From the NCBI RefSeq assembly GCF_000507245.1, contig NC_023035.1, positions 2,709,570 through 2,773,569 of the forward strand: a DNA stretch of 64,000 bases, given 5' to 3'. Source of the DNA: Salinispira pacifica (lineage in GTDB: Bacteria; Spirochaetota; Spirochaetia; DSM-27196; Salinispiraceae). Below the pieces are notes generated by a model. It did not search any database. It was not told where the DNA came from and saw only the letters and a program-made list of their open reading frames with translations. The position numbers were made by a program, and so were the translations under genes. How positions within the stretch are numbered: the stretch's first letter is position 1; each line of letters starts with the position of its first letter. Below, piece after piece: positions 1 to 25,539 of the stretch.

Positions 1-2454
1 CAGCACGTAGCGGCCCGTTTCGGTCTGCACCAGCTCAGAGGATCGGGGATTGTGAAACTCAATAATGTCGGTGAGTGGAAGAGAAAACAGAGAGTCCTGA
101 ACGGTGAACACAATGCCGTCGATAATGGCCAGAGTGAGGGGGATTTTTAAAATGAACTCTGTCCCTTCTCCTTCCACCGAGCTGATACTCACCTTCCCTC
201 TGAGTTTCTCGATATTTTTTTTCACCACATCCATTCCCACGCCTCTGCCGGAAATTTCCGACAGCTGAGCGGCAGTGGAGAACCCGGGCTCGAATATGAG
301 ATTGAACACCTCTTCATCGCCGAGATCATCGCCCTGATCGGCAATAATCCCCTTCTCCAGGCCTTTGTCCAGGATTTTCCGGCGATTCAATCCCTTACCG
401 TCATCGATAATTGAGATCCAGATCTCATTGCCTTCATAGCGGGCCGATAGAGTAAGGTTTCCTGCTCCATTCTTTCCACTGCTGCGGCGATCGGCGGCGG
501 TTTCAATGCCATGGTCAATTGCATTGCGGATAATATGAACCAGGGGATCGGATATTTCATCGATCACATTTCTGTCCATCTCCGTATCTTCACCGCTGAT
601 ATGCAGATGGATATCTTTGGAAAATTTCCGGCTGAGGTCCCTCACCAGTCTGCGCATTTTATTGAAAAGCCCATCCAGGGGAATCATCCTGATGGACATG
701 GTTAATTCCTGTATTTCCCGGGTGATTTTATTCAGGGATCCCGCAGCCCGGTTGAAATTTTCCAGGTTAAGCCCTTCCAGATCTTCGTTATGCAGAACCA
801 TGGACTCGGCGGTGATCAGTTCACCCACCAGGTTGAACAATCTGTCAAGTCTGCCGGTGTCCACCCGGATATCCTGCCGGGCATGTTTCTTTCCCTTTGC
901 AAGCTGCTTTTCAGCGGGAACCTGTTTTCCCTGACGCTCCAGGGCTGCGGCTATGTCCGACTCTTTCACAAGCCCCTTCTGAACAAGTATCTCCCCAACT
1001 TTCATATCCTGCTGCTGAAGGGCTTCATCCACCTGCTCCTGCTCCACCAGCTTCATATCGATCAGGATTTGACCCAGTTCGATATTCTCCTGCTGAAATC
1101 GGCTATCTCCGGGGGAGGCCCCGGTTGCTGCAGACGTCGGCTCCCGTTCTCCGGGGCTTCCGTCAGAGCGCTCAGCTGATGTTCCAGGGCCGGCCGAACC
1201 GTAGGCAGTCGGGATTTCAGCAGCAGCAGCAGTTGATTCCCGGGGAAGAACCAGACCGCTGCGGATGGCATCCACGGTTTTCAGAACAATAGAGATGTCG
1301 TCCTGCTCCAGAGTCTTCCCGGAACCCCGGAAGGTGTCCAGGAAGCTTTCCAGATCCATGCAGAGGGTTTCCGCATCGGCATACTGGAAGAATCCGGCAT
1401 TGCCCTTCACCGTATGGATGGCCCGGAACGCCTCATCGATGGATTCCGAGGCATCCTCTCCAGGCTCCAGATTCAGCAGACCGTTTTCCACCCGATCAAG
1501 AAGATCGCTGCTCTCGGAGATAAACCCTCCAAGCATCTGTTCGTCAAAAAGCTCCCCATATCCTTCGGGAATGACCGGCGGCGACGGTGTGAAAATATGA
1601 AACGGAGCATCCGCCGGTGCAGTACCGCTCGTTTTCCCTCCGGATGTACTTCCGGCCGTATGACCGGCATCTTCCGGATCACCCGGGGCCCGGGCCCTCC
1701 GGGACTCAAGCCTTGCGATAATACCGTCCACAGGCAATGTGCTGCCGGGTATGGTTTTCGCAGGCTTTCCGTTTTGTGCATCATACCATTCCTGGATTTC
1801 ATCCAACTGAGCAGCAAGAAGATCGGTTCCCTCAAGGAGAAGATCCGCCAGATCCGCATCCATGGATATCTGGCCCAGGCGTAAATCCTCCAGAAGATAT
1901 TCCATGCTGTGGGAAAGGCTCTGAATCCGCGGAAGATCCAGAAAGGAGGAAACCCCTTTGATGGTGTGCATTGCCCGGAAGATCTCCTCAACAATGGCAC
2001 GGTCTCCGCTGTTTTCAAAGCTGAGAATTCGCTCTTCTATATCATCCAGATGATTTCTGCCCTCAGCCAGAAAAGACGCGAGTACGTCCATATCAACAGA
2101 CGATTCTCCGGCGTCTTCGCCGTCTTTGGTTTCTTCGGTTTCTTCGGAAATTCCGGGCTCATCATCGGAAGCCCGGGAAGGAGGGGACGCCCCTTCTTCG
2201 GGGGATGTGGCGGGTTCACGGTACGCAGCGCTTTCAGATCCCTCCAGCTGGCGGATGATCCGGTCTTTCAGTTCACGGGGATCATTCGCTCTGCCGGTGG
2301 CAAGGAGAATGATCTGATCCCTGAGCATACTTATCTCATTGCTCCCGGGACTGTCCGGGTCGAGACTGTTCACGACATCTACAATCTCCGCTCCCGCAAG
2401 AAGATCACCGGGTTCAAAATCTTTTATGTGTGCAAGCAGCTCGTTCGGACTCAT
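1..2454 (-). CDS. cheA: Chemotaxis histidine kinase CheA, C-terminus beyond window
   Basis: Cytoplasmic kinase that phosphorylates CheY in response to receptors. The frame is open from the ATG at 2454 (preceded by GGAGAG) to base 1, 818 residues, and continues outside. Two HPt domains are visible, with phospho-acceptor His in AMHTIKG (about residue 163) and in AIHTVKG (about 347). At about 456-505 lie two tandem repeats (ELGQILIDMKLVEQEQVDEAL and KVGEILVQKGLVKESDIAAAL), separated by five residues, that resemble MshEN-type modules. The dimerisation and ATPase regions follow, with an N-box HIIRNAIDHGIE and G-box motifs GKGL and GRGVGMDVV. Last gene seen of a minus-strand operon, 99 bp after cheY. 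The second HPt and the inserted module are unusual; identity as CheA is secure. Confidence 0.95.
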   Translation of the reverse strand, partial: MSPNELLAHIKDFEPGDLLAGAEIVDVVNSLDPDSPGSNEISMLRDQIILLATGRANDPRELKDRIIRQLEGSESAAYREPATSPEEGASPPSRASDDEPGISEETEETKDGEDAGESSVDMDVLASFLAEGRNHLDDIEERILSFENSGDRAIVEEIFRAMHTIKGVSSFLDLPRIQSLSHSMEYLLEDLRLGQISMDADLADLLLEGTDLLAAQLDEIQEWYDAQNGKPAKTIPGSTLPVDGIIARLESRRARAPGDPEDAGHTAGSTSGGKTSGTAPADAPFHIFTPSPPVIPEGYGELFDEQMLGGFISESSDLLDRVENGLLNLEPGEDASESIDEAFRAIHTVKGNAGFFQYADAETLCMDLESFLDTFRGSGKTLEQDDISIVLKTVDAIRSGLVLPRESTAAAAEIPTAYGSAGPGTSAERSDGSPGEREPTSAATGASPGDSRFQQENIELGQILIDMKLVEQEQVDEALQQQDMKVGEILVQKGLVKESDIAAALERQGKQVPAEKQLAKGKKHARQDIRVDTGRLDRLFNLVGELITAESMVLHNEDLEGLNLENFNRAAGSLNKITREIQELTMSIRMIPLDGLFNKMRRLVRDLSRKFSKDIHLHISGEDTEMDRNVIDEISDPLVHIIRNAIDHGIETAADRRSSGKNGAGNLTLSARYEGNEIWISIIDDGKGLNRRKILDKGLEKGIIADQGDDLGDEEVFNLIFEPGFSTAAQLSEISGRGVGMDVVKKNIEKLRGKVSISSVEGEGTEFILKIPLTLAIIDGIVFTVQDSLFSLPLTDIIEFHNPRSSELVQTETGRYVL

Positions 2455-2553
2455 GTTTTCCAACTCTCTCCAGCTTCAACAATATATTTCCGCAGTATTC
2501 CGCTCACCGTCACTGCCGGTTATTCCGGCCCGGGCGCGGTGAACCTCCGACAA

Positions 2554-2950: not shown

Positions 2951-4345
2951 TCAGAACAGCGTTACATCGCCGCTGAGCTCAGGATCTTTACCGCTTGCTT
3001 CATCTTCCTTGAATTCAAGCCCCAGCACCGAGTATTCTTCTTTCACAGTGAGAAGGGATGCAATCATCGAGTGAAAGTTCCGAACCCTCTCCTCATGCTG
3101 CAGATCACCCTCGTCAGCCTCATTTTTCCGGATCTTGGATGTACTCAGTTCAAGCTCATCCCTGAATAACTCCACGATGGACACAATATGGCTGAGAATC
3201 TGGGAACCCGCATCCTGATATTGCAGATCCCGGATAATGGAATCCAGGGACGAGGTGACCGTGTCCGATAAGCCCTGGATCAGCCCCACACCCTCCTGAA
3301 CACCCTGGTTCTGACTGTTCAGAATTTGAATCATTTTGTGGAGCTCCTGCTGGTTGTTCTCCATTCGTTCGATTGAACTCTGAATTACCTCGTTCTGACG
3401 GTCCAGCCGGGCGCCGGATTCCTTCACCGAGTTGATCATCACCGTATTCAGCTTCCCTACGAATTCCTGGCTGGTTCCCGCAAGCTTCTGAATTTCCGAG
3501 GCGATCACCGCAAAGCCCCTTCCCGCTTCTCCGGCCCGGGCGGCTTCTATGGCGGTGTTAATGGCCAGAATATTGGTCTGCTCGGCAATCTCATTCATTT
3601 CACTGGCGAAGCCGTTTACAGTCTTCCGGGTTTCTTGCATATCCCGGACAATTTCCTGGAGGTTCTTCTGTATGAGATGGAATTCGCTGCTCAGCTGATC
3701 GTTCAGGGCCAGTTCCTCGGTTAATCCCTGAATATTTTTTTCAAGGCTTTGGTCGCCGCTGTTGATGTTCATAAGAAGTTCGCTGATATTTCTGCTCACA
3801 TCGTGGCTTTGATCGGCTATGGTAAATACCTGCTCAATGGCCGAGGCGGTTGAACCCTCCGAAGAATTATCCATGAGTCCTGCAAGACTTCTGGTTGAAC
3901 CCGAAGTAATCTCCAGCAGACGGGAGAGAACGGTGAATTCCTCCAGGGCCTTCCGCCATGCCTCCCCGGACTGCTCCCCCGGAGAATCTTCCGGGCCCGG
4001 GGTATCTTTTATGACAGACAGAGCGGCAGATGTGTCAGACAGAGCGGCAGATGACGCTGAACCGTTCACTCCGGTATTGTCAGAAGGGTCCCATCGCCGG
4101 GAATGCCCGGGACCGTACTCCGGCGGCAGCTCATGAGCATCCCCGTGAGCCTTCATATCCATATGACCTTCCGGAGAACTGTGTGCCCTCTCTCCCGCCT
4201 GATGTCTACGGCGGTATTCTCTTAGGGCAAGAAATATCAGAATAGCGCTTGCTGCAGAAGGAATGAGCTGAAAGAAGGTTCCTCCGAAGAACAGAAGGAG
4301 CAGATTCGAGAGAAGCAAAACTGAGCCGAGTGCGATTATCACCAT
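2951..4345 (-). CDS. Methyl-accepting chemotaxis protein with CheZ-like motif
   Basis: Chemoreceptor of 464 residues. The N-terminus has two closely spaced hydrophobic helices (about 2-20 and 25-42) with no room for a periplasmic sensor domain, then a variable polar stretch rich in His, Ser and Pro (about 45-125) and a cytoplasmic coiled-coil signalling domain. The hairpin tip is canonical ([18 protein letters not shown]). Near the C-terminus, [11 protein letters not shown] places Asp378 and Gln382 in the D-x-x-x-Q spacing of the CheZ phosphatase active site (QDLTGQ). Encoded between the ParA-type gene and cheY in the che operon. The receptor assignment is firm; the phosphatase idea is inference. 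Confidence 0.9.
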
Positions 4346-4455: not shown

Positions 4456-5436
4456 TCAAGGTCCGGCTGCTATCTGTTCAAGTTCATCTTTCAGACCGTC
4501 CAGATCTTCATCCGCATCATACAGGCCTGGCTGGGCGAGATCATTGCCTTTAATGATTCTTCCTGCAATGTGACCCAGGCTCACCGAGGCGGGGCATTCA
4601 GGGTCGAATGCGCTTAAGGGTTTTTTTGATAGAATGGATTTATAACTATCCTCATACCGGGGAACATACCCGATGTACTCCAGGCTGATCCCCACATTTT
4701 TCCGGGTAACCTGACGCAGACGGGCTCCGAGATCAATATCATCACCTGATCGCCCCATATTGATAATCACCCTGTACCCCAGTCCTTCCATGAGTTCCCG
4801 TGCATGGTTTTCCGATTCAGTGGATATGCTGCCCAGCTCCCTGAGCAAACCGTTGAAGCTCAGCTGCGATCCTTCAATTCGGGAACTGAGATACTCATGA
4901 ACCCGTTGCCGCTCGGGGCTTTTCCGGGGGAATGCCCGGAGTATCAGCCGGTAGCAGGCCGCTTTCACAAAACCGTAGGCGTTGAGAATGGCGGTGGGTT
5001 CCGCACTGGTGACCACAATCCCCCGGGGAGACGACAAAAAAAAGTCCACGGTATTATAGGAAGCGCCGGCGCCCAGATCCAGAATGACATAATCGGCAAC
5101 CAGTCTGCCCAAATCCCTGATAATTCCCACCTTCCGGTAATAGGGAAGATTGGCAGCGCCGGGTATCATCTGATCTCCGGGAATAAAATAGAGCCGGGAA
5201 TACCGGGTGTCCACAATCAGATCTTCCAGATTGGATACACTGCCATTGATGTAGTTTCCTATTCCCGGGTTATTGTTGGGAACACCCACACAGCTGTGAA
5301 GATTGGCCCCGCCCAGGTCAAGATCAACCAGAACAACGGTGTGGCCCCTGCTGGCAATGAGATGTCCCAGGGAAGCGGAGATCAGCGTTTTACCAACTCC
5401 GCCCTTGCCGCTTGCGATGGGAATTATCCGGGTCAT
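4456..5436 (-). CDS. ParA/MinD-family ATPase of the chemotaxis operon
   Basis: P-loop ATPase of 326 residues. The deviant Walker A KGGVGKT lies near the N-terminus and VVLVDLDLGGANLH follows. This is the MinD/FlhG/ParA family, whose members position large complexes using ATP-dependent dimerisation on membrane or nucleoid. The C-terminal tail is acidic (DADEDLDGLKDELEQ); no obvious amphipathic membrane-targeting helix was seen. Its start overlaps the J-domain gene by four bases (ATGA), indicating translational coupling. Chemotaxis-linked ParA proteins (ParC in Vibrio, PpfA in Rhodobacter) place receptor arrays; the location here suggests the same role. FlhG is the alternative, but no flagellar genes are adjacent. 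Confidence 0.85.
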   Translation of the reverse strand: MTRIIPIASGKGGVGKTLISASLGHLIASRGHTVVLVDLDLGGANLHSCVGVPNNNPGIGNYINGSVSNLEDLIVDTRYSRLYFIPGDQMIPGAANLPYYRKVGIIRDLGRLVADYVILDLGAGASYNTVDFFLSSPRGIVVTSAEPTAILNAYGFVKAACYRLILRAFPRKSPERQRVHEYLSSRIEGSQLSFNGLLRELGSISTESENHARELMEGLGYRVIINMGRSGDDIDLGARLRQVTRKNVGISLEYIGYVPRYEDSYKSILSKKPLSAFDPECPASVSLGHIAGRIIKGNDLAQPGLYDADEDLDGLKDELEQIAAGP

Positions 5437-5945
5437 ATCCTGCCACCGCCCTTGCTGTATTTCCGGTTATGCCGATATTGCCTCAGGAGAAGGTCGTTCA
5501 GTTCCCGGGGAGTCATGAGCCCCTCCTTCAGAAAATATCTGCCGATGGGACCTTTAGATGTACGCCGCCAGCAGAGGGCTTCCACCAGCTGTTTCCACTG
5601 GATCCGGCCGCTGTAGAGAAGAAACTGGCCTAAAGGCAGGTGCACCCCCGGAATATCTCCGGGAGGTGGTGCAGGCGGTGAACCTGCTTCTTCAAGGCGG
5701 GTATCTGTACCATTATCCAGATAATCCAGAAGGCGCTCATACGAGTTACGAAGAATGATAAAAGATTCACTGCTCCCGACGGAGGAATCGGGATGCCGAT
5801 CCTTCACCCGTCTGCGATAGGCCGCTTTCAGCCTGGAGGAATTGAGAGTAGTCAAAAACGAACTGTCCACCTTCACGCTGCTGCCGAAAACCTCTCTTAC
5901 GTCTCTGAGCAGCTCAAGCGTCGATATTTTCGTACTGCTCGGCAT
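5433..5945 (-). CDS. J-domain protein with MshEN-like C-terminal module
   Basis: Small protein of 170 residues from ATG 5945 (GAGG nine bases upstream; a TTG one codon earlier is also possible). The N-terminal half resembles a J domain, with the HPD motif at about 51-53 (KDRHPDSS) and helix III after it, so it could recruit an Hsp70. A Pro-rich linker follows (about 90-100). The C-terminal part has two repeats (PLGQFLLYSGRIQWKQLVEAL and PIGRYFLKEGLMTPRELNDLL) like those in the CheA of this operon. It overlaps the end of cheW by 32 bp and the ParA-type gene by 4 bp. Function is not established. Confidence 0.75.
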   Translation of the reverse strand: MPSSTKISTLELLRDVREVFGSSVKVDSSFLTTLNSSRLKAAYRRRVKDRHPDSSVGSSESFIILRNSYERLLDYLDNGTDTRLEEAGSPPAPPPGDIPGVHLPLGQFLLYSGRIQWKQLVEALCWRRTSKGPIGRYFLKEGLMTPRELNDLLLRQYRHNRKYSKGGGRI

Positions 5946-6453
5946 CAAGAAGTTCCTCGTTTCCTACTACTTTTTCCACATCAAGAAGAATTTTCACCTG
6001 ATCCTGAACTTTTCCCAGTCCCTGAATGTAACGTTCCCGAACGCTCCCCGACTTGAAAGAAGGGGGCGGATCAATGTCCTTGGGGAGGATGTCCTGCACT
6101 TCATTCACGGTATCCACGATAAACCCGATGGATCCCTGATCCAGCCCCACAATAATAATGCAGGTCCTGTCATCATACTCTCTCTCAGGCATGTTGAACC
6201 GGATCCGTAAATCCATTACCGGAATAATTCTTCCCCGGAGGTTTATGATTCCCCGGATGAAATCCGGCAGATCGGGAACTTTGGTGATTTTCTGCAGTTC
6301 GATGATATCCGTCACGGTCATTATATTGAGACCGTAGGCTTCCTCACCCAGTTGAAACAGAAGATATTTATTCTGTTGGGTAGAATCATCGTCGTCATCC
6401 ACCAGAAACATTTCATCATCATTTTCACGTTTGGTCTGTTTGATATCCGACAT
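5914..6453 (-). CDS. cheW: Chemotaxis coupling protein CheW
   Basis: Scaffold protein of 179 residues that links receptors to CheA. The CheW fold is evident from KYLLFQLGEEAYGLNI, the segment IRGIINLRGRIIPVMDLR, and GFIVDTVNEVQDI. An acidic N-terminal extension of about 25 residues (FLVDDDDDSTQQ) precedes the domain. The start at 6453 follows GAGGAG at good spacing. First gene of the che operon, after a 126 bp gap from the upstream chemoreceptor gene. Its 3' end overlaps the J-domain gene. Confidence 0.93.
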   Translation of the reverse strand: MSDIKQTKRENDDEMFLVDDDDDSTQQNKYLLFQLGEEAYGLNIMTVTDIIELQKITKVPDLPDFIRGIINLRGRIIPVMDLRIRFNMPEREYDDRTCIIIVGLDQGSIGFIVDTVNEVQDILPKDIDPPPSFKSGSVRERYIQGLGKVQDQVKILLDVEKVVGNEELLDAEQYENIDA

Positions 6454-23667: not shown

Positions 23668-25539
23668 CTACAGTTCAATGACCGGTGCCGGCACGGCAAA
23701 GTAAAAGCCCTGGGCAATATCGCAGTCGGTATCCAGCAGGCGGGTCAGCTGGGCCTCACTCTCCACGCCTTCTGCAACAACCGTATAGCCCAGCAGATGG
23801 CCAATGGTGCATATTGAGCTGAATATACCGAATTTTTTTTCGTTCGTGTGTATATCATCAATAAATGACTTGTCCACCTTCAGTTCATCCAGCTGGAGAT
23901 TGCTGATATAGGAGAGGGAAGAGAACCCCGTGCCGAAGTCATCCAGGGAGATTCTCAAAGACTCGGCTTTCAGCTTCTCCACGATCTGCCTCAGCTTGGA
24001 AATATCCTCTATAAACACATCTTCGGTAATTTCCAGAATGATCCGGCGGGGATCAACCCCCTTGTTTCGCACCGCGGCAATCAGAAATTCGGGAAATCCC
24101 GGATCCAGAAACAGGCTGGGGGAAATATTTATTGCAATGTGTAAATCCGCACCGAAGCGTGCGTCAATCTCAGGAACATCCTTCAGCACTTTTTCCAGAA
24201 TCAGGTAACCGAAGCGGTTCATCAGATGATACTTGTTCAGAATGGGAATAAACTGCATGGGAGAGACAAACTGACTCGCAGTATCCTGCCAACGGGTCAG
24301 GGCTTCAAGACCTATTACCCTGGAATCTTTCAGACTGATTTTTTTCTGGTAGTATACAAGAAACTCATCCTGTTCGATGGCCTCTTCAAGAGCACTTCTG
24401 AGAATCATCTCTTCGGAACTGTAATCCTTCATGGCCGGGTCGTAGAGCACCACAGCTGCGGCGGATATTCCTTCGCTGCGGTACAGGGCAATCCCGGCAT
24501 TTTTATAGCATTCTTCAATGCTCTCCCCGTCCCGGGGGTAGGCTGAGGCGGCAGCACGGATATCCAGTGTGATTTCCGGAAACTGCTCCCTGACTATCTG
24601 CTTCATACGGTTGCTGAAGAGGGCCACACGTTCATACAGATCGGATTCACTCCAGCCGCCGGCCCATCCCACAAACTCCACCCCGTTATACCGTGCAATG
24701 AAATTGTTTTCGCTGCTGTAGGATTTCAACAGACGTCCCACATGTTCCAGAAGGAGATCGGCCTTGGCCGGCCCGATGAGAGAATTCACGATACGGAAAT
24801 TATAGATTTCCAGTACAATAATATACCCCTCTCCCAGAGTCCCCGCATGTGAGCGGCTGTGAAGCTCTTTTTCAAATGCCATCTTATTGGGTAATCCGGT
24901 GACAGGATCGGTGTATGCCAGTGCTTTCAGTTCATCTTCCCGCTGTTGTAACCGGGTATTGGTCTTTTGCTGAACACGGAGCAGTCCAAGCAAACGCCGT
25001 TTCAGAAGAATAATGGCAAATGCGGCAAATCCTGAGGTAAAGGCCAGAGCAATCCCGCGGGTCAGCCATTGCTGGGGACTGTTCATCCTGTTCAGATGGG
25101 AAATTCCATACTCCACATAGGCCTGCCCTACAATCAGGGAAAAAAGAAGAAAAAGAAGGACGGTGAATCCCATAAATCCGAGGGCCCTTCCCGGACTGGA
25201 AACAGTGAGGTACAGAATATGAAGGGCGAAAATAGTAAGGAATGCAGTTCCGATAAGTCCGCTGAATATCAGCGAGTACGCAATGCTCATGAGCCCCAGC
25301 AGGGTTGCAATGGTGATTTTCAGAGTGAGAGAAGTATAGCGGGGAAATGCCCCCATGAGAAACGATACCCCTGCGGTAATCAAATTCAGCTGGGGGAATA
25401 TACCGTGATTCATTGAGTTGAGACTCTGATATACCCCGGACACCAGGGTTGCCGTTGCGAAAAGAAAGAGGGCTGCCTGTAGCACCGGTTCAGTCAGCTG
25501 TTGGTACTGCTTCCAGTTTTCGTGTCTGTCGGGACTCAC
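23668..25539 (-). CDS. Membrane protein with degenerate GGDEF and intact EAL domain
   Basis: Cyclic-di-GMP protein of 623 residues, GTG start. About six hydrophobic segments fill residues 15-185. The GGDEF domain (about 205-360) has NGVEF in place of GGDEF, so it should not synthesise c-di-GMP. The EAL domain (about 370-620) keeps its catalytic signatures: EALTRW, NISPSLF, EITED, DDFGTGFSSL, KVDKSF, AEGVES and QGF. It is therefore probably a phosphodiesterase, with the degenerate domain as regulator. Monocistronic on the minus strand between the methyltransferase and the amylase genes. Confidence 0.9.
   Translation of the reverse strand: MSPDRHENWKQYQQLTEPVLQAALFLFATATLVSGVYQSLNSMNHGIFPQLNLITAGVSFLMGAFPRYTSLTLKITIATLLGLMSIAYSLIFSGLIGTAFLTIFALHILYLTVSSPGRALGFMGFTVLLFLLFSLIVGQAYVEYGISHLNRMNSPQQWLTRGIALAFTSGFAAFAIILLKRRLLGLLRVQQKTNTRLQQREDELKALAYTDPVTGLPNKMAFEKELHSRSHAGTLGEGYIIVLEIYNFRIVNSLIGPAKADLLLEHVGRLLKSYSSENNFIARYNGVEFVGWAGGWSESDLYERVALFSNRMKQIVREQFPEITLDIRAAASAYPRDGESIEECYKNAGIALYRSEGISAAAVVLYDPAMKDYSSEEMILRSALEEAIEQDEFLVYYQKKISLKDSRVIGLEALTRWQDTASQFVSPMQFIPILNKYHLMNRFGYLILEKVLKDVPEIDARFGADLHIAINISPSLFLDPGFPEFLIAAVRNKGVDPRRIILEITEDVFIEDISKLRQIVEKLKAESLRISLDDFGTGFSSLSYISNLQLDELKVDKSFIDDIHTNEKKFGIFSSICTIGHLLGYTVVAEGVESEAQLTRLLDTDCDIAQGFYFAVPAPVIEL

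Follow-up and report, generated by a model that had tools for sequence, protein, structure and literature searches.

The closest described counterparts of the module considered here are the tandem c-di-GMP-binding motifs of MshE from Vibrio cholerae and PilF from Thermus thermophilus. The terminal Gln of both motifs touches the ligand in MshE and in PilF. At position 1 of a motif R, K and L are all allowed: the K167L variant of PilF binds at 2 nM, and PilF GSPII-C still binds with a Pro at position 1 of motif II, whilst changing both terminal Gln to Glu abolishes binding by PilF GSPII-B (PMC11731258). Non-binding members also exist, among them XpsE/GspE (PMC5013675) and PilF GSPII-A, in which a few changes abolish binding with the fold kept, although the N-subdomain by itself could be brought to bind (PMC12002112). 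CheA was already included among the MshEN fusion partners in the main text of a 2016 survey (PMC5013675).

The window analysed, a stretch of 64,000 nucleotides of the Salinispira pacifica genome, carries a cheA gene at its edge (Table 1). The domain order of the product, from the ORF and Pfam, is HPt–HPt–MshEN_N-like module–P3–P4 (HATPase)–P5 (CheW-like). Pfam matched Hpt (two stretches), H-kinase_dim, HATPase_c and CheW, all above cut-off, and the P1 (HPt), P3, P4 and P5 domains of a CheA histidine kinase are thus present. No Pfam match to P2 (PF07194) was found in this CheA, although the paralogue at L005:3907-6384 does match. P2, which binds response regulators, is not essential to the CheA family.

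Table 1. Features of the cheA gene and its surroundings (window coordinates unless stated)
Feature	CheA residues	Position	Strand	Remarks
cheA		1..2463	-	truncated at window edge; complete ORF of 920 aa in L004:6271-9033
First HPt	126-226	1786..2088	-	Pfam PF01627
Second HPt	~310-400	~1260-1535	-	position read from sequence
Motif I, ELGQILIDMKLVEQEQVDEALQQQ	462-485	1009..1080	-	
Spacer DM		1003..1008	-	2 residues
Motif II, KVGEILVQKGLVKESDIAAALERQ	488-511	931..1002	-	
Linker, module to P3	512-530	874..930	-	short, charged
P3 dimerization domain (H-kinase_dim)	530-591	691..876	-	Pfam PF02895
MCP-signalling-domain protein in che operon		2951-4345	-	orthologue L197:4686-6026
MinD/ParA-like ATPase in chemotaxis operon		4456-5436	-	
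J-domain protein		5433..5948	-	two LG repeats in C-terminal half, MshEN register 29
GGDEF domain in 624-aa ORF		24475-24918	-	genome 2734044-2734487

As an earlier note on this DNA had proposed, two tandem repeats follow the second HPt and precede the P3/kinase core. The whole segment, ELGQILIDMKLVEQEQVDEALQQQ-DM-KVGEILVQKGLVKESDIAAALERQ, covers residues 462-511 (window 931-1080, minus strand), so that the coordinates given earlier (residues 456-505, window 953-1110) were some 20-30 bases off. The ungapped BLOSUM62 score of the two 24-mers was 45. In 1000 shuffles of the whole CheA the mean maximum tandem-pair score was 22.5 ± 4.8 and a score of 45 was reached in 1/1000; the repeat therefore exceeds chance. 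With substitutions allowed, both halves follow the 24-residue pattern [RKL]LGxx[LVI][LVI]xxG[LVI][LVI]xxxxLxxxLxxQ. Motif II is close to the perfect extended consensus (K488, G490, G497, I504, L508, Q511), with K488 fitting the R/K/L of position 1. Motif I retains G464, V478, L482 and Q485, but E462 replaces R9 and K471 replaces G18 (MshE numbering), which confirms that it lacks both the basic residue and the central Gly. The Gly at position 3, associated with backbone hydrogen bonds to guanine, is found in both motifs (G464 and G490), whilst the turn Gly (G18 and G47 in MshE) survives only in motif II (G497). The Gln at position 24 is likewise found in both (Q485 and Q511), a pair that the earlier note did not mention. 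Between the full motifs stand two residues, giving a register of 26 rather than the 29 (24+5) of MshEN; the spacer of five reported earlier came from counting from the A-L pair instead of the terminal Gln. In the same pattern, two residues rather than three separate L-[IV] from [GK]. MshEN_C, the C-terminal α/β subdomain, is absent, and P3 begins 19 residues past the module.

Sequence comparison shows that the repeat and the c-di-GMP-binding N-terminal subdomain of MshEN/GSPII domains are homologous. A phmmer search of a 72-residue CheA segment against all PDB chains returned PilF (3.2e-10), PilB (~0.005-0.01) and MshE (5htl, 0.99), and up to E=10 only one non-GSPII match appeared (E=1.2). In the PilF and MshE alignments a three-residue gap falls exactly between the CheA motifs. 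A profile of 20 CheA segments found PilF at 1.9e-31, PilB at 1.9e-10 and MshE (5htl) at 7.9e-9, although it also picks up de novo helical repeat proteins. The Pfam MshEN model (PF05157) matched neither the CheA segment of the window nor any CheA in the genome or in 61 relatives. This negative carries no weight as an argument against kinship, since PF05157 also fails to match the motif region of PilF GSPII-B, whose nanomolar binding is proven. No tandem motif pair was found in the PF05157 matches of the relatives, and for that reason they did not serve to make a reference alignment. DUF4388 (PF14332) matched the CheA motif region weakly and partially, below the curated cut-off, and the same weak sub-threshold match was given by the PilF GSPII-B motif region.

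A first structure model, of the module with P3, was poor globally (pTM 0.34), with a low-confidence stretch at 64-82 that corresponds to the linker at residues 512-530, and the module was then folded alone. AlphaFold2, given the segment and 70 relatives (71-sequence alignment), predicted a bundle of four helices (5-11, 17-24, 31-37 and 43-55; pLDDT 85, pTM 0.68), as in MshEN/GSPII domains; MshEN structures may have been included in its training. In a Foldseek search of the PDB, ranks 1-11 were all c-di-GMP-bound PilF GSPII-B or MshE chains, and 5htl_B, c-di-GMP-bound MshE, superposed at 1.4 Å with TMq 0.79; the E-values were just 0.07-0.5 for a query of 60 residues. VIA-align gave Z 9.6 over 56 residues against 5htl, compared with at most 3.6 for unrelated rows, and Z 7.2-7.5 against the PilB N-domain in its PilZ complex, but Z values of this size can arise by chance between helical bundles; homology therefore rests on the sequence evidence, and the fold agrees with it. 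The alignment maps model residues 2-57 to MshE 7-65 with the offset shifting from 5 to 8, which places three missing residues in the helix 2-3 loop. A predicted fold unlike MshEN and a lack of conservation in CheA had been named beforehand as outcomes that would count against the proposal; the prediction was instead MshEN_N-like and the module proved to be conserved.

The tandem module was kept in the two-HPt-class CheA of relatives L007-L014 and was absent from the CheA at L015 and L016, which are similar from P3 onward only. It was also found, with a one-residue spacer, in a second, broader class of CheA of ~700-800 aa. In a contig scan it lay immediately ahead of P3 in CheA of Spirochaetota, Planctomycetota, Desulfobacterota, Nitrospirota, Magnetococcales, SAR324, Aquicultor and others. 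Orthologous and paralogous CheA proteins alike carry it at a fixed place. At least one match was present in 49/61 relatives, and the module occurs once in the S. pacifica genome. Among 80 loci read by eye, at least two motifs were seen in ~67 and a low-complexity linker alone in 12, a split which indicates that the module is either present or wholly missing, with the proviso that the scan query included the module segment and thereby favoured presence. Almost every CheA copy has a spacer of 1-2 residues, compared with five in MshEN. The MshEN arrangement described in the earlier note thus stands as kinship, by sequence, predicted fold and conservation in CheA, and falls in its five-residue spacing. 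A P2-like role in CheY docking was considered and rejected, as P2 is not the same domain and, in the second class, the module occurs alongside a separate stretch at the P2 position (read from sequence; L033 has no Pfam P2 match). CheA proteins of Scalindua/Brocadiaceae-type and Anammoxibacter genomes (L083, L091, L093, L095 and L102) have at least three LG repeats before P3, at spacings of 25-26. Stand-alone proteins of ~65-70 aa consisting solely of two MshEN-like motifs (ERIGEFLV..G..) were observed in relatives (L191:780-1025, plus strand; L193:780-1010, minus strand).

The ligand-contact residues were followed in two alignments, A1, whose rows were chosen on P3 alone with the motifs not looked at, and A3, whose 71 rows were selected with a pattern requiring Gly in both motifs. 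Because of that selection, Gly invariance is claimed from A1 only, where both motif Gly residues are among the invariant module columns, as is the motif II Gln. That Gln lay outside the A3 selection pattern, yet it was present in 71/71 A3 rows; the motif I Gln was present in 52/71 and missing in 19/71. Mean entropy in A3 was 0.31 bits for the four Gly/Gln contact columns (two of them, the Gly, preselected) versus 2.62 bits for the other columns. Register was 25 or 26 in the A3 relatives and 22-35 in a few other CheA. Position 1 was mostly K, R or P in A3; the extended (R/K/L) consensus with both Gln was found in 24/71 rows, or in 41/71 if Pro is allowed. S. pacifica CheA was alone among the 71 in having a Glu at motif I position 1 and a Lys in place of the motif I turn Gly, whereas almost all of its CheA relatives have a tolerated residue at these two consensus positions.

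Homology, conservation and placement of the module are matters of observation, and residues 462-511 of CheA are probably a minimal bundle of predicted MshEN_N fold, an accessory module conserved next to P3 in the family and with a degenerate motif I in this protein. By analogy, its most likely role in the CheA family is that of a cytoplasmic input for c-di-GMP. On the model of the MshE and PilF structures, one guanine would be held per half-motif; the motif Gly residues would give backbone hydrogen bonds and the terminal Gln would contact ribose and phosphate. The module sits in the linker directly N-terminal to P3, with the HPt substrate domains on one side and the P3 dimer on the other, where ligand may stiffen or reorient the tether of the HPt domains, and an altered tether could in turn change autophosphorylation and phosphotransfer. 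Binding of c-di-GMP by the module family is slightly favoured by these data. For the S. pacifica module itself it is doubtful: two consensus residues of motif I are lost, which makes binding uncertain, and a first half-site that is partly degenerate with both Gln, both motif Gly and the hydrophobic clusters kept suggests a module that binds more weakly or survives as a structural relic. Control of CheA by c-di-GMP is accordingly graded as plausible for the family and uncertain for the S. pacifica protein. Further points speak against binding: MshEN_C, which contributes one contact, is absent from the module, no solved binder with a spacer of 1-2 residues was found, part of the A3 rows lack the motif I Gln, and in PilF GSPII-A a few changes suffice to abolish binding. 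GGDEF proteins were encoded in 37/37 module-bearing genomes tested, weak support given that such proteins are common, and the S. pacifica genome has 25 GGDEF and seven PilZ matches.

Alternatively, the module may keep the MshEN_N fold without nucleotide binding and serve in docking, for example of a PilZ-type or array protein, or as a spacer, positioning P1 versus P3. This is an appreciable although unlikely possibility. It fits the degenerate motif I of S. pacifica CheA and part of the family, the short spacer, unlike that of any proven binder, and the existence of non-binding relatives (XpsE/GspE, PMC5013675; PilF GSPII-A, PMC12002112). Precedents are the PilB N-domain, to which PilZ docks, and degenerate GspE N-domains, which have a structural role; the model also matches the PilB N-domain in its PilZ complex at the Z given above. 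However, the motif II Gln is kept in every A3 row although it lies outside the core, and the motif Gly residues are invariant in the unfiltered A1; conservation of exactly the ligand-contact positions is not what one would expect of a pure spacer. It is improbable that the module binds another ligand, e.g. a different cyclic dinucleotide: the two-fold half-sites suit such molecules, MshE binds cGAMP weakly (PMC5013675) and the changed spacer and position 1 could shift specificity, but GGDEF enzymes occur in all module-bearing genomes tested and the guanine-contact Gly is retained. A chance or convergent amphipathic helical repeat is most improbable, for although helices with generic [LIV]G..L.. 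/ A-L patterns occur widely and the profile also scores de novo helical repeats, the single-sequence matches are almost purely GSPII, the fold match is well above unrelated rows and the module occupies a fixed place across phyla.

Repeats of related form were also seen in the che cluster, whose order is MCP–cheW–J-domain protein–MinD/ParA-like ATPase–MCP-like protein–cheY–cheA, followed by cheR–cheB–cheD–cheY–cheX-like–MCP, these last genes being named by sequence reading. In relative G036 (L197) cheR-cheA-cheY-MCP-like-MCP-cheW-J protein are kept together. The repeats of the J-domain protein (PLGQFLLYSGRIQWKQLVEALCWR-RTSKG-PIGRYFLKEGLMTPRELNDLLLRQ) lack the terminal Gln in motif I, and their profile matches PilF at 2.8e-4. 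Its orthologues (L147, L148, L151-L153 and L155) have four LG repeats and occur mostly in genomes carrying the two-HPt CheA class; the window copy seems to be an exact excision of the middle two repeats. A C-terminal tail, GDVTLF, possibly a docking peptide, is common to the MCP-signalling-domain protein of the window and its L197 orthologue.

Compared with MshE (5htl; Wang et al. 2016, PMC5013675), the CheA module has the same tandem 24-residue motifs, Gly, Leu clusters and both Gln, and its model is a predicted four-helix bundle close to the MshE structure. It differs in its spacer (two residues versus five), in E462 for R9 and K471 for G18, in having no MshEN_C and in its host protein, a CheA kinase rather than an ATPase. 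PilF GSPII-B (8pdk; PMC11731258) is the best single-sequence and structural neighbour. It shares with the module a Lys at one motif position 1 and, like many second-class CheA copies, lacks one residue of motif II; unlike the module, it has a five-residue spacer, an α/β C-subdomain and proven nanomolar binding (PMC11731258). The CheA module therefore differs from the canonical MshEN domain in its short spacer and missing C-terminal α/β subdomain. The MshEN-CheA fusions of the 2016 survey have the same domain pairing, and the available part of that paper (PMC5013675) gave no function, spacing or CheA-specific form for them. In the literature searched, no paper on the function of MshEN-CheA was found. 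What is new here is the CheA-specific form, with its short spacer, no C-subdomain, a fixed place at P3 and a wide spread, in a family that the Pfam MshEN model does not find. Tentatively, a large and as yet unnamed CheA class of many phyla may use this compact, C-subdomain-free MshEN_N pocket with its 1-2-residue spacer on P3 as a direct c-di-GMP receptor. If so, MshEN_N modules without a C-terminal subdomain are being overlooked when c-di-GMP receptors are counted with Pfam. In known systems c-di-GMP reaches chemotaxis via adaptors, such as MapZ on CheR1 and PilZ-bearing receptors, and via motor brakes; a receptor module inside CheA would be the most direct c-di-GMP route to chemotaxis, and would operate in many phyla.
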